IMG/VR virus record: IMGVR_UViG_3300030106_001948
Coordinates: 1 to 25,810 of that record
From: a virus
Strand: one strand, 5' to 3'
Length of the DNA: 25,810 nucleotides
Shown here in pieces: positions 174 through 13,447 of the stretch; the stretch's first letter is position 1, and the number at the start of each line of letters is the position of its first letter. The notes under the pieces were generated by a model that was not told where the DNA came from, ran no database searches, and worked only from the letters and a program-made list of their open reading frames with translations. Both the position numbers and the translations under genes were made by a program.

Positions 174-857
174 ATGGCAAACTTAAATAAGAGTTCAAAG
201 CTTGATTATAAAAAGATCCCCAGATCACTTACTTTGAATAATAATCCTAAACCATCTTGGGTAAAAGAGAAGCCTCCACCTAATCCAAACGAAAAGAGAG
301 GTAGGGTTAGAGTACATAAAGATCAAAAGTTAACTAGACGACAAGAGCTTTTTGTAAAAGAGCTTGTATCTAACGACGGTCAGATAACTTTGTTGGAAGC
401 CGCTATGCGGGCGGGGTATTCTAAATCTTCTGCACACATTAGAGCTTATGAGCTTACTAATCCACATTTAAGTCCTCATGTAGTATCCGCCATCAAAAGA
501 GAAAGAGATCTTTTAGATGAAAAGTTTGGAGTAACTTACGCTAGACATATTCGAGATTTACAACAGATTAGAGATTTAGCTTTAGAAAACGGAGCCTACT
601 CAGCCGCCGTTCAAGCGGAGTATCGTAGAGGTATGGCTCAAGGAGATATTTATGTGAACAAGTCTGAGATAAGGCACGGATCAATAGATAGTATGAGCAA
701 AGATGAAGTTGTAAAAGCAATCGAAGAAATAAAAAGGTCTTACGGTGAACAAACCATTGATATTACCCCAGACGAGCAAGAAGGAAGCAGGACTATATCA
801 GCAACTGAAATCAGCGAGCAAGAGGTCCAAGAGAAACCTAATTCTGACAAGGATTGA
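174..857 (+). CDS. terS: Terminase small subunit (TerS)
   Basis: Probable DNA-recognition subunit of the packaging motor, 227 aa. A basic, proline-rich N-terminus (residues 20-52) is followed by LTRRQELFVKEL (53-64) and a helix-turn-helix-like stretch centred on EAAMRAGYSKSSAHIRAYEL (75-94). This is the usual layout of the Terminase_2 family, where the HTH binds the packaging site. A helical region (116-155) would form the oligomer, and the acidic tail (195-227) is likely disordered. ATG 174 is preferred over TTG 162 because GGAG lies between them. The tail overlaps the next gene out of frame by 113 bases. It is unusual that the large subunit starts 6 kb downstream rather than next door. The family call is from motif reading, not a search. 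Confidence 0.8.
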   Translation: MANLNKSSKLDYKKIPRSLTLNNNPKPSWVKEKPPPNPNEKRGRVRVHKDQKLTRRQELFVKELVSNDGQITLLEAAMRAGYSKSSAHIRAYELTNPHLSPHVVSAIKRERDLLDEKFGVTYARHIRDLQQIRDLALENGAYSAAVQAEYRRGMAQGDIYVNKSEIRHGSIDSMSKDEVVKAIEEIKRSYGEQTIDITPDEQEGSRTISATEISEQEVQEKPNSDKD

Positions 858-1179
858 GAATTGGGCGGGACAAGGAATACCTGATCTTCTTATCTGTGAT
901 GAACTAGGATTATTTCATTTTGTAGAGTTAAAGTTTGTCAAGGCTAATGCAGTCAATCTTAGTCCTCATCAAGTAGCTTGGTTGACTAGGCATAAGCAAG
1001 GTAGTGCTTGGATATTAATAAAGAAACAAAACAACCCAACTACTACGGCCGAGTTATATTTATATAAAGCGACCCAAGCCATTGACCTTAAAATGAACGG
1101 TTTGAAGACCGAACCAAAAGAAGTTTGGAAAGCACCTTTTGAGTGGGAAAAAGTTTGGGGCTTGATTTGTCCCATATAA
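745..1179 (+). CDS. VRR-NUC-like PD-(D/E)XK nuclease
   Basis: A 144-aa protein with the core of a VRR-NUC/Holliday-junction-resolvase-type nuclease: a helix with Glu14 (KKEAGLYQQLK), Arg36-Ile-Glu38, GIPD (44-47), VELK (60-63) and Gln76 in SPHQ. These fit the E / GxPD / ExK / Q pattern that binds metal and cuts branched or double-stranded DNA. In phages such enzymes resolve recombination or packaging intermediates. The GTG start at 745 lies inside terS in another frame. The overlap is probably real because conserved N-terminal residues (about 12-37) are encoded there. GGTCT at 736-740 is only a weak RBS, so a different non-ATG start nearby is possible. TATAAT-like sequence follows the stop. 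Confidence 0.7.
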   Translation: MNKPLILPQTSKKEAGLYQQLKSASKRSKRNLILTRIENWAGQGIPDLLICDELGLFHFVELKFVKANAVNLSPHQVAWLTRHKQGSAWILIKKQNNPTTTAELYLYKATQAIDLKMNGLKTEPKEVWKAPFEWEKVWGLICPI

Positions 1180-1221: not shown

Positions 1222-1410
1222 ATGAAATACGATACCGTTTGTTTTTTGGGTTTTGCAATTCAACATGACACAAAAGAGCCTGATGTTTTAGAGAATGTTA
1301 GAGCAATTAGGCTTGCTATTTTAAATCGACTAGCACGAATGACAGATAAAGAAATTTTAAGTGAAATTGAATTTGGAGAAACGATAGATATTTTTGAGGA
1401 GGATAAGTGA
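1222..1410 (+). CDS. Hypothetical 62-aa protein
   Basis: I do not recognise this small protein. It has a hydrophobic, beta-like N-terminus (YDTVCFLGFAIQ) followed by a helical, charged stretch (ENVRAIRLAILNRLARM, about 24-41) and an acidic end. ATG 1222 is chosen over the overlapping GTG at 1219 because GGAGG sits at 1210-1214. The TGA stop overlaps the ATG of the next gene by one base, so the two are probably translationally coupled. It is the first gene of the cluster that leads to the Mom-like gene. It lacks the paired cysteines of Mu Com, so I do not propose that role. Confidence 0.6.
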   Translation: MKYDTVCFLGFAIQHDTKEPDVLENVRAIRLAILNRLARMTDKEILSEIEFGETIDIFEEDK

Positions 1411-1892
1411 TGGAATTAGAACTTAGAAATATAAAGTATAGTAGCTTTGCATCTCAAGAAACATCTTGTTATCAAGCAAAGCTTTATGTTGATGGCAAGC
1501 CTTTTGCCACAGTAGGAAATGAGGGATGTGGTGGTTGCGATTATCAGCATTCTCTTACTAAACAAGACAAAGCGTTCTATGATAAGTTAGAAGAAATTAA
1601 TACTTATCTTAAAACTTTACCAAAAGTTAAAAGTCCTTGGTCTGATAATGACGAATTTGATGTTGATCTTGAAATTTGGTGCGGTGAGGAACTCAGTAAA
1701 TGGAAATGCTCTAAGACCCTTAAACGTAATTTAAATAAAGGTTCAATGATTAAAGATACTGATGGTGAACTATATCATTGGAAACAACATTTTGCGTCTG
1801 ATGTAATTTTAAAGCATCACCCAAAAGCAGTTATTCTTAATGATTTACCATTTGAAAAAGCCCTAACTATTTTTATGGCACTTGATGAATAA
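1410..1892 (+). CDS. Hypothetical protein next to Mom-like gene
   Basis: A 160-aa protein of unknown function. The N-terminal part looks like beta strands (LRNIKYSSFAS, YQAKLYVDGKPFATVGN) followed by a glycine/cysteine knuckle EGCGGCDYQHS (about 38-48). The middle is acidic and the C-terminus is helical. A GAGGAGG RBS lies at 1396-1402. The start overlaps the upstream stop by one base and the end overlaps the Mom-like gene by eight bases, so all three are likely one translational unit. The Cys-Gly-Gly-Cys might bind metal, which is only inference. It could be an accessory factor for DNA modification, judged solely from position. Confidence 0.6.
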   Translation: MELELRNIKYSSFASQETSCYQAKLYVDGKPFATVGNEGCGGCDYQHSLTKQDKAFYDKLEEINTYLKTLPKVKSPWSDNDEFDVDLEIWCGEELSKWKCSKTLKRNLNKGSMIKDTDGELYHWKQHFASDVILKHHPKAVILNDLPFEKALTIFMALDE

Positions 1893-2478
1893 TTATTCCG
1901 TACAACAGATTGGGTATAAGGATACAAAACACCTTATCTTGAATGTTCATTACGCAAGACGTATGCCAAGCATATCTTTTGCGTATGGACTATTTGAGAA
2001 TAATAAGTTTGTTGGTTTGGTATCGTATGGCACTCCTGCTAGTCCCTCTTTATGTAAAGGTATTATGGGCGAGGAATATAAATCTGAGGTGTTAGAATTA
2101 AACCGTTTGGTATTGATTAATAATAAAAAGAACGAAGCAAGTTATTTAGTAGGTCAATCTCTTAAATTATTACCTAAGCCTAGATGTATTGTTAGTTATG
2201 CCGATACACAACAAGGTCATGCAGGTTGCATATATCAAGCGAGTAACTTTTTCTTTACGGGAACTACCAAAGCCCGAACAGATATGGCGGGTAAAGATGG
2301 TCAACACAGTAGACATCATTTAGGTGATAGAACGAATAGGGTTTATAGATCAGCAAAGCACAGATATGTAACTTTTATTGGCAATAAAAAACAAAAGAAA
2401 AAATATTTAAAACTTTTGAATTATCCAATATTAACAATTTATCCAAAAAATAATGGAGGAACAAATGATAAGCATTGA
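1885..2478 (+). CDS. Mom-like GNAT-fold DNA modification protein
   Basis: A 197-aa protein resembling phage Mu Mom, which converts adenine in phage DNA to N6-carbamoylmethyladenine and so blocks host restriction enzymes. Family-like features are NVHYARRMPS near residue 20, the strand-turn LFENNKFVGLVSYG, ELNRLVL (about 69-75, with the conserved Arg), and SYADTQQGHAGCIYQASNFF (about 102-121). The Asp-to-Tyr spacing in SYAD...IYQA is ten residues, matching the D139/Y149 pair I recall for Mu Mom. The C-terminus is basic (KNKKQKKKYLK region), fitting DNA contact. ATG 1885 overlaps the previous stop. A broader GNAT acyltransferase is the main alternative. Confidence 0.68.
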   Translation: MNNYSVQQIGYKDTKHLILNVHYARRMPSISFAYGLFENNKFVGLVSYGTPASPSLCKGIMGEEYKSEVLELNRLVLINNKKNEASYLVGQSLKLLPKPRCIVSYADTQQGHAGCIYQASNFFFTGTTKARTDMAGKDGQHSRHHLGDRTNRVYRSAKHRYVTFIGNKKQKKKYLKLLNYPILTIYPKNNGGTNDKH

Positions 2479-2788
2479 TAAACTAACTGAGATGTACAAC
2501 AAATGGGGTGACGAACAAAATCTTCAGCCACTTGGTTGTGCTTTAGAAGAAATCATGGGCAACGATAAACTATCTGAGATGCAGAGAAATTGGTTAATCC
2601 GATTTGTAGATGTTTGGGAATATGCTCAAGACAAAGAAGATTTATTACTAGGTGATCAAATAGCTTTGAAAAGTAACAAATCAAATGTCACTGTCATTGA
2701 AGATGACGACCCAAGATATGTAGAAGATGAAAATTTAAAACATAAAATGAATTTAAAAAGTTATTTTAATGCGAAAGGGGGTGATTAA
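2465..2788 (+). CDS. Hypothetical 107-aa phage protein
   Basis: A small, mostly helical, acidic protein (ISIDKLTEMYNKWGDEQNL, then MQRNWLIRFVDVWEYAQDKED). I recall similar short proteins with a W-x-x-x-F...W(D/E)YAQ pattern in marine phages, but no function is known to me. ATG 2465 is preferred over in-frame ATG 2453 because GGAGG (2455-2459) lies between them at ideal distance. It overlaps the end of the Mom-like gene. The acidic, compact form would suit a protein-protein interaction role, but that is a guess. Confidence 0.6.
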   Translation: MISIDKLTEMYNKWGDEQNLQPLGCALEEIMGNDKLSEMQRNWLIRFVDVWEYAQDKEDLLLGDQIALKSNKSNVTVIEDDDPRYVEDENLKHKMNLKSYFNAKGGD

Positions 2789-2886: not shown

Positions 2887-2914
2887 AAGGGGGCTTGACT
2901 AGTCCCCTTTTTTC
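2887..2914 (+). terminator. Rho-independent terminator
   Basis: AAGGGG (2887-2892) pairs with CCCCTT (2904-2909), and the T-run reaches 2913. It closes the terS to 2881 block. The next AT box starts seven bases later. Confidence 0.8.
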
Positions 2915-3631: not shown

Positions 3632-3653
3632 TTTATCCTATATATAGGATAAA
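3632..3653. repeat. 22-bp perfect palindrome
   Basis: The bases 3632-3653 read the same on both strands (arm TTTATCCTATA). The right half is the TATAGGATAAA core of the AT boxes, so this copy has the core in both orientations. A dimeric regulator could bind here, or the symmetry may be chance in AT-rich DNA; the GG/CC pair makes pure chance less likely. Confidence 0.6.
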
Positions 3654-3667
3654 TTATATATATGGAG
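3639..3667 (+). promoter_or_regulatory. AT box plus RBS, copy E
   Basis: TATATATAGGATAAAT followed by TATATATATGGAG. It is nearly identical to copies at 2920 and 3955. GGAG 3664-3667 is seven bases before ATG 3675. No terminator separates it from the gene trio upstream. Confidence 0.6.
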
Positions 3668-3674
3668 AAACAAA

Positions 3675-3952: not shown

Positions 3953-3954
3953 GT

Positions 3955-3987
3955 ATATTATATATAGGATAAATCTTATATATGGAG
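3955..3987 (+). promoter_or_regulatory. AT box plus RBS, copy F
   Basis: TATATTATATATAGGATAAA followed by a TATATATGGAG segment lies directly after the terminator. GGAG 3984-3987 serves the ATG at 3997. Confidence 0.6.
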
Positions 3988-3996
3988 AATCACATA

Positions 3997-4828: not shown

Positions 4829-4853
4829 AATATAAGACAAATAATATATATTA
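4829..4853 (+). promoter_or_regulatory. AT box, copy G (upstream of hairpin)
   Basis: ATATAAGACAAATAATATATATTAG resembles the other AT boxes with the core degraded (AAGACAAA for AGGATAAA). Unlike copies D-F, the hairpin comes after the box, between it and the RBS. Confidence 0.4.
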
Positions 4854-4856
4854 GTG

Positions 4857-4886
4857 AGGCGGGGTAGTTTTTCCCGCCTTATTTAA
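4857..4886 (+). terminator. Terminator or attenuator hairpin
   Basis: AGGCGGG (4857-4863) pairs with CCCGCCT (4873-4879), followed by an imperfect T-run (TATTTAATTT). It lies between an AT box and the RBS of the DUF932 gene, so it could terminate the gene before it, attenuate the gene after it, or protect a processed RNA end. Confidence 0.65.
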
Positions 4887-4906
4887 TTTAAACATGGAGT
4901 AAAAAT
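4882..4906 (+). repeat. 25-base leader repeat, copy 1
   Basis: The 25 bases ending in AACATGGAGTAAAAAT are identical to 5953-5977. They contain the RBS ATGGAG followed at once by the stop TAA, proving the ATG of ATGGAG is not a gene start here. Confidence 0.75.
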
Positions 4907-5898: not shown

Positions 5899-5926
5899 CT
5901 ATATAAGATAAAACCTATATATATTG
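5899..5926 (+). promoter_or_regulatory. AT box, copy H (upstream of hairpin)
   Basis: CTATATAAGATAAAACCTATATATATTG matches the box consensus well (AAGATAAA core). As in copy G, it precedes the hairpin rather than following it. Confidence 0.5.
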
Positions 5927-5927
5927 G

Positions 5928-5957
5928 GGGCGGGGTATTTTATCCCGCCCTTTTTAA
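5928..5957 (+). terminator. Terminator or attenuator hairpin
   Basis: GGGCGGG (5928-5934) pairs with CCCGCCC (5944-5950), followed by TTTTTAATTT. It is a strong hairpin, placed between box H and the RBS of the next gene as in the module at 4829-4906. Confidence 0.8.
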
Positions 5958-5977
5958 TTTAAACATGGAGTAAAAAT
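5953..5977 (+). repeat. 25-base leader repeat, copy 2
   Basis: Identical to 4882-4906. It holds GGAG (5967-5970) for the ATG at 5976, whose first bases are the end of the repeat. Confidence 0.75.
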
Positions 5978-12796: not shown

Positions 12797-12875
12797 GGAC
12801 CTGTTATTGTTTATAATTGTTTTAATGGCGTTATATTGGACTATACTTTTTCCTCCAAAGTGGTTATTTATATAA
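12786..12875 (+). CDS. 29-aa single-span membrane peptide
   Basis: ATG 12786 to TAA 12875 encodes MEIEDLLLFIIVLMALYWTI followed by LFPPKWLFI. It is nearly all hydrophobic and would span the membrane once. It overlaps the end of the upstream membrane protein and stops two bases before the methyltransferase ATG, so it fits the operon exactly. It might be a pinholin- or regulator-like peptide; only its hydrophobicity and placement support it. Confidence 0.5.
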   Translation: MEIEDLLLFIIVLMALYWTILFPPKWLFI

Positions 12876-12877
12876 AA

Positions 12878-13447
12878 ATGGGAAAAAGATCGGAATTTGG
12901 TAGGATAGACAAGGATTTTTATCCAACGCCGGCAAAAGCACTAGAACCTTTATTACCTCATTTAGAGGGTTACATTTCCTATGCCGAACCAATGGCAGGT
13001 AATGGTTCTTTAATTAATGCAATGGATAGGTCTACAGATTTAAAATGTAAGTGGATGTCTGACATTCATCCGCAAAGACTTGATATTGAACAAGCTAATG
13101 TTTTTGATTTAACCTTGAAAGAAATAGGGATTGATACAGATTTAATTATTACCAACCCGCCTTGGTCTAGGGATTTATTACACGATACTATTATGCACTT
13201 GTCGGCTATTAGACCTAGTTGGCTTTTGTTTTATGCTGATTGGATGCACACTATACAAGCTATTCAGTATCTTCCTTATTGTCAAAAGATACAAAGCGTC
13301 GGTAGGGTTAAGTGGTTTCCTGATACACCGCATACTGGAAAAGACAATGTTTGTTGGTATTTGTTTGATCAGAGAAAAAAATCTGATACAGTAGAGTTTT
13401 ACCCTAGAGGTTGGATGGGTGGACTTTCTATGATGAAGGAGTTTTAA
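12878..13447 (+). CDS. Orphan SAM-dependent amino-methyltransferase
   Basis: A 189-aa class I methyltransferase, probably acting on DNA adenine N6 or cytosine N4. Motif I is EPMAGNGSL (37-45), an acidic residue at the end of strand 2 is Asp62 (SDIHP), and motif IV is TNPPW (92-96), the NPPW type of amino-methyltransferases. DFYPTPAKALEPL (13-25) is the usual N-terminal lead-in. There is no obvious target-recognition domain and no partner endonuclease nearby, so it is a lone modification enzyme, perhaps anti-restriction. ATG 12878 is preferred over TTG 12836 because the homologous-looking part begins there and the small membrane gene ends just before. Confidence 0.75.
   Translation: MGKRSEFGRIDKDFYPTPAKALEPLLPHLEGYISYAEPMAGNGSLINAMDRSTDLKCKWMSDIHPQRLDIEQANVFDLTLKEIGIDTDLIITNPPWSRDLLHDTIMHLSAIRPSWLLFYADWMHTIQAIQYLPYCQKIQSVGRVKWFPDTPHTGKDNVCWYLFDQRKKSDTVEFYPRGWMGGLSMMKEF

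Follow-up and report, generated by a model that had tools for sequence, protein, structure and literature searches.

The Mom enzyme of phage Mu decorates adenines in phage DNA, blocking bacterial restriction enzymes, and it needs the regulator Com. A mom-like gene set among small overlapping genes in a viral contig raises the question of whether such an enzyme is part of a dedicated modification system, with a partner of its own, or stands alone among ordinary phage genes. The contig analyzed here (hereafter the window, 25.8 kb at its full length) was originally predicted to carry a Mom homologue in a coupled four-gene cluster, with an upstream protein bearing a CGGC motif as a possible new partner. 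We hold with high confidence that the window encodes a standalone Mom, carried as an optional one-gene cassette in an operon of the packaging region.

The window and its packaging-region operon

The window is a partial phage contig, and its relatives by TerL are 57–61 kb long. Its TerL shares 62–63% identity with those of Pelagibacter phage HTVC027P and phage 023Pt_psg01; judged by this sequence, the window is a tailed marine phage related to pelagiphages. No Mom was found in the records of HTVC027P, 023Pt_psg01 and HTVC023P.

All four open reading frames of the original prediction, encoding 62, 160, 197 and 107 aa, were recovered at the expected positions (Table 1), and their successive overlaps of 1, 8 and 14 bases were confirmed. 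The four genes are not kept together as a unit: the closest relative has no 62-aa gene, and another relative has no mom. In both the sister phage contig L002/L010 and a shorter contig, L013, no gene separates the VRR nuclease from the 160-aa gene. The layout suggests that the six genes from terS (for which an alternative TTG start at 162 is possible) to the 107-aa gene are expressed as a single transcript.

Table 1. Features of the packaging-region operon in the window.
Feature	Position	Strand	Evidence or remark
Terminase small subunit (terS), first gene of the operon	174–857	+	phrog_51 3.1e-10; Pfam Terminase_2 1e-4, just below cut-off
VRR-NUC type nuclease, overlaps terS	745–1179	+	phrog_2165 4.5e-14; Pfam VRR_NUC 0.0013, below cut-off
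62-aa ORF, not conserved	1222–1410	+	Absent at the same position in closest relatives
160-aa "CGGC" phage protein of the packaging region, function unassigned	1410–1892	+	Alignment of 52 homologues
Mom-family DNA adenine modification enzyme, 197 aa	1885–2478	+	Pfam PF25680, phrog_1384, PDB 8bv8, AlphaFold model, residues, dN/dS
107-aa protein	2465–2788	+	Residues 3–56 (N-terminal part) match phrog_9962
Terminator-like hairpin and T-run, closing the terS to 107-aa unit	2887–2909	+	

Several minor features were observed in and downstream of this operon. The 107-aa gene resembles a fusion by deletion: the corresponding region of the sister phage (L010, 7086–7544) contains two ORFs, with the start of the first and the end of the second matching the two ends of the window gene. 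A 39-base intergenic element (TATATATAGGATAAAT...TATATATGGAG) occurs in three copies (2915–2953, 3634–3672 and 3954–3992), and a 77-base terminator/leader unit in two (4830–4906 and 5901–5977). These 39-base and 77-base intergenic repeats are possibly phage promoters.

Identification of the Mom protein

The 197-aa protein matched the Pfam Mom family (PF25680) at E=1.7e-35, with a score of 123 bits against a cut-off of 27.1 and coverage of profile positions 2–200 of 202. It likewise matched phrog_1384, annotated as "Mom-like DNA modification protein" (E=8.2e-56), and Mu Mom itself (PDB 8bv8; phmmer 1.4e-12, profile 1.4e-25), to which it is ∼28% identical. Among reference phages, 273 records contained relatives, with the best match (∼50% identity) in Proteus phages. 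The protein is a single domain, with no fused nuclease domain.

An AlphaFold model was built from 58 sequences of the window and viral contigs (pLDDT 88.6). When this model was searched against known folds, the two 8bv8 chains ranked first and second (E 1.7e-12 and 1.9e-11; TM 0.67–0.75), followed by ordinary GNAT proteins at 6.6e-06 or weaker. The structural comparison proposed with the original prediction thus returned Mu Mom, with the Arg/Asp/Tyr site intact, and not unrelated GNATs, as the best match. An alternative is a generic GNAT acetyltransferase whose substrate is a small molecule or a protein instead of DNA; the fold is GNAT-like, and many GNATs were indeed matched at E about 1e-5. 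Yet Mu Mom leads them by about six orders of magnitude, none of the Mom-specific residues is lost and the profile score lies far above its cut-off, such that we regard this alternative as extremely unlikely.

The three predicted signature motifs, ELNR (71–74), SYAD (104–107) and IYQA (116–119), are all present. One detail required correction: nine residues, rather than ten, lie between D107 and Y117, a distance of ten positions, and the spacing in Mu Mom is identical. Across 110 aligned Moms, H22, Y23, E71, R74, N83, S86, D107, Y117 and R160 are kept in 106–110 sequences, and G114, A119 and N121 are also almost invariant. R74, D107 and Y117 align with R101, D139 and Y149 of Mu Mom (231-residue numbering), which we take to have catalytic roles. 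S86 aligns with Mu Mom S124 (241-residue numbering), and the 8bv8 entry is titled as the inactive mutant S124A. Estimates of dN/dS for the window gene were 0.17 against L002 and 0.08 against L001, a contig with a closely similar Mom, indicating that the gene is under purifying selection. Profile matches, the predicted fold and residue conservation strongly support the Mom assignment: the protein is a true Mom-family enzyme with a divergent GNAT fold, an additional member of an already known family, and it is probably functional.

Absence of Com from the window and the Mom start site

None of the neighboring genes resembles Com, as had been predicted. Within the 25.8-kb partial contig there was neither a match to the Com family (PF10122) nor a plausible small gene with two CxxC motifs, and the Mu-style arrangement, in which a zinc-finger com gene overlaps mom from upstream, is absent from the window, where the unrelated 160-aa gene occupies that place. 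Since the contig is partial relative to its 57–61 kb TerL relatives, a regulator or partner could lie elsewhere in the genome.

No clear or strong ribosome-binding site was seen before the Mom ATG; translation is therefore probably by re-initiation after the 160-aa gene, to which Mom is likely coupled through the 8-base stop/start overlap. No Mu-like hairpin was seen at the Mom start, where folding was no more stable than in shuffled sequences (z +0.33), a comparison with little power given that the Mu stretch used for reference also gave z +0.56.

The 160-aa protein as a candidate partner

The gene overlaps, together with the placement of mom directly 3' of the 160-aa gene in the window, L001 and L002/L010, would fit a dedicated four-gene modification system with the CGGC protein as a new partner of Mom, whether activator, subunit or Com substitute. 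Its distribution argues against such a role. A search for homologues of the 160-aa protein found 118 viral stretches, from which 80 loci were kept. A TerS homologue was present in 55 of these and the VRR nuclease in 46, while Mom occurred within ∼6 kb in only six, leaving 74 with no Mom nearby. Mom adjoins the homologue on the same strand in just two of them, L001 and L025, and L025 is the same contig as L002/L010. Whole contigs of the family gave a similar result: full-length Mom matches were found in just two of 43, with partial matches of 28–31 bits, just over the cut-off, in three more. A distant homologue is also encoded by three Brevundimonas jumbo phages, and Mom is absent from the two of these that were screened by profile.

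The reciprocal survey agrees. The 160-aa protein was found at 2 of 86 Mom loci, and in 3 of 70 independent Mom clusters; the commonest neighbor family, a different one, reached 11 of the 70, and no gene family recurred consistently beside Mom among them. Furthermore, the CGGC cysteines are serines (GSGGS) in L001 and L013, the latter retains the 160-aa gene without an adjacent Mom, and the 62-aa member of the supposed system is not conserved. The model of the 160-aa protein (pLDDT 92.0) had no significant fold match among solved structures, and its fold matches were confined to phage proteins without an assigned function. A role as a zinc, redox or RNA-binding partner was rejected on the basis of the non-conserved cysteines, the different fold and the independent distribution. 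The partner proposal thus fared poorly, and we consider it highly improbable; the neighbors of Mom are normal packaging-region phage genes and not a new partner system.

Two further observations concern this family. The homologue in the sister phage (L010, 6001–6525) carries a 13-residue insertion (ESLRLATRIDAPY) near its N-terminus that is absent in other aligned members. Four contigs of the family (G012, G021, G022 and G038) contain frames of 154–165 aa whose weak matches (25–31 bits) to the Mom profile cover only about its first half; these possibly represent a separate Mom-related GNAT family.

An empty site and the mobility of Mom

L013 keeps the gene order of the window, with terS (82% identity), the VRR nuclease (84%), the 160-aa gene (61%) and a homologue of the 107-aa gene (75%). 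The stop codon of its 160-aa gene is followed directly by the start of the 107-aa gene, so that Mom is missing precisely between them in this 4.7-kb stretch, a length that makes it possible for Mom to be elsewhere in the L013 genome. Because the order is the same and Mom is missing at exactly this point, we interpret Mom as a cassette of one gene that the packaging operon may carry or lack. The Mom-free site represents either a loss or the original empty state.

Two other contigs show further combinations. In L001, terS is 65% identical to that of the window, and Mom, at the same place, is 87% identical. In L011 the 160-aa gene is 90% identical, and the Mom, encoded on the opposite strand, is a different one (47%). 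Taken with L013, these patterns indicate that Mom moves independently of its neighbors, as an accessory gene.

The upstream nuclease

Mom domains fused to nucleases have been described in jumbo phages, where a restriction role has been proposed for the fusions (PMC7824862). Since the operon also holds a VRR-NUC type gene, three genes before mom, a comparable restriction-modification-like pair can be envisaged in the window, in which Mom would shield phage DNA as the nuclease cuts unmodified host DNA. Unlike in the jumbo-phage systems, the VRR nuclease is here a separate gene; it overlaps terS, is kept without an adjacent Mom in L013 and lies near terS in dozens of Mom-free loci. The terS overlap and Mom-free occurrence place it in a packaging or recombination module. 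It was therefore rejected as a restriction partner, and we judge the pairing very unlikely.

Proposed function and comparison with known Mom systems

The standalone reading draws on family membership, fold, a conserved site, selection, optional presence and the lack of a conserved partner. By analogy with the Mu enzyme, the window Mom would most likely add a Mom-type carbamoylmethyl/acetamido group to the N6 of adenine, presumably modifying some of the adenines in the DNA of the phage itself, and would do so with no need for a dedicated partner protein or Com. DNA modified in this way would no longer be cut by host restriction endonucleases; the original proposal that hypermodified adenine protects this phage from restriction is, on the same analogy, a sound expectation. 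With only ∼28% identity to Mu Mom, the exact modification could differ.

The Mu and window enzymes share family, fold and the HY/E/R/S/D/Y/R positions. They differ in the shorter N-terminus of the window protein and in genetic context, as the window has no com gene or com-mom overlap and its mom lies in a packaging-region operon. Mom-like proteins of Proteus (Lavrentievavirus), Bacillus Riggi, Listeria A511 and Exiguobacterium phages (PHROG 1384) are 44–52% identical over almost their full length and, as in the window, have no Com-annotated gene beside them; their flanking genes differ in each case. A gene of ∼75 aa lies 3' of Mom in the Proteus, Bacillus, Listeria and Exiguobacterium phages, and was rejected as a common neighbor, the sequences looking unrelated by eye. 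Mom-like accessory genes are also carried by Charybdis elements, which are marine mobile elements (PMC12324425). The window resembles these in being marine and in having Mom as an accessory gene, but they are a different type of element, whereas the window is a tailed phage.

Mom-bearing phages thus gain a marine member that is pelagiphage-related by TerL. The natural empty site and the neighbor survey indicate that Mom functions as an accessory made of one gene, with no conserved partner, and this evidence argues against seeking a Com substitute in such phages.

Additional Mom genes and other modification enzymes

The sister phage (G003, L010) has two Moms that diverge from each other, and the site residues are intact in both. 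It also encodes an MT-A70 methyltransferase, and the window has a methyltransferase-like gene of its own. Conceivably, this lineage stacks several adenine-N6 modifying enzymes, two Moms of differing specificities or targets providing layered protection and a second Mom lying in the missing half of the window; we put this forward only tentatively and think it rather doubtful. Nonetheless, the paired Moms of the sister phage, like the tandem pairs in other contigs, raise the question of divided specificity.

In this phage, which is the closest sister of the window, the second Mom lies at 2387–2971 and scores 68.5 bits to Pfam Mom. It is preceded and overlapped by a 59-aa zinc-ribbon ORF (2221–2400), and an MT-A70 adenine methyltransferase is located further upstream (992–1522). 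The zinc-ribbon ORF was considered as a Com and rejected, as it had no significant family match and, among 27 loci, was found upstream only in L010 and the two closest relatives of its second Mom.

Four other viral contigs carry two Moms: L110 (4959–6238), L152 (391–1886), L161 (4932–7644) and L125 (1–5612). The pairs in L110 and L152 are in tandem with a 4-base overlap, and both copies in all four contigs retain the site residues R, D and Y, save for one Arg-to-Lys change in L161. Lastly, the window contains a DNA methyltransferase-like gene among its structural genes (12836–13447; phrog_799 3.9e-26) with an NPPW motif, homologues of which were found in 39 reference phages, mostly of alphaproteobacteria.
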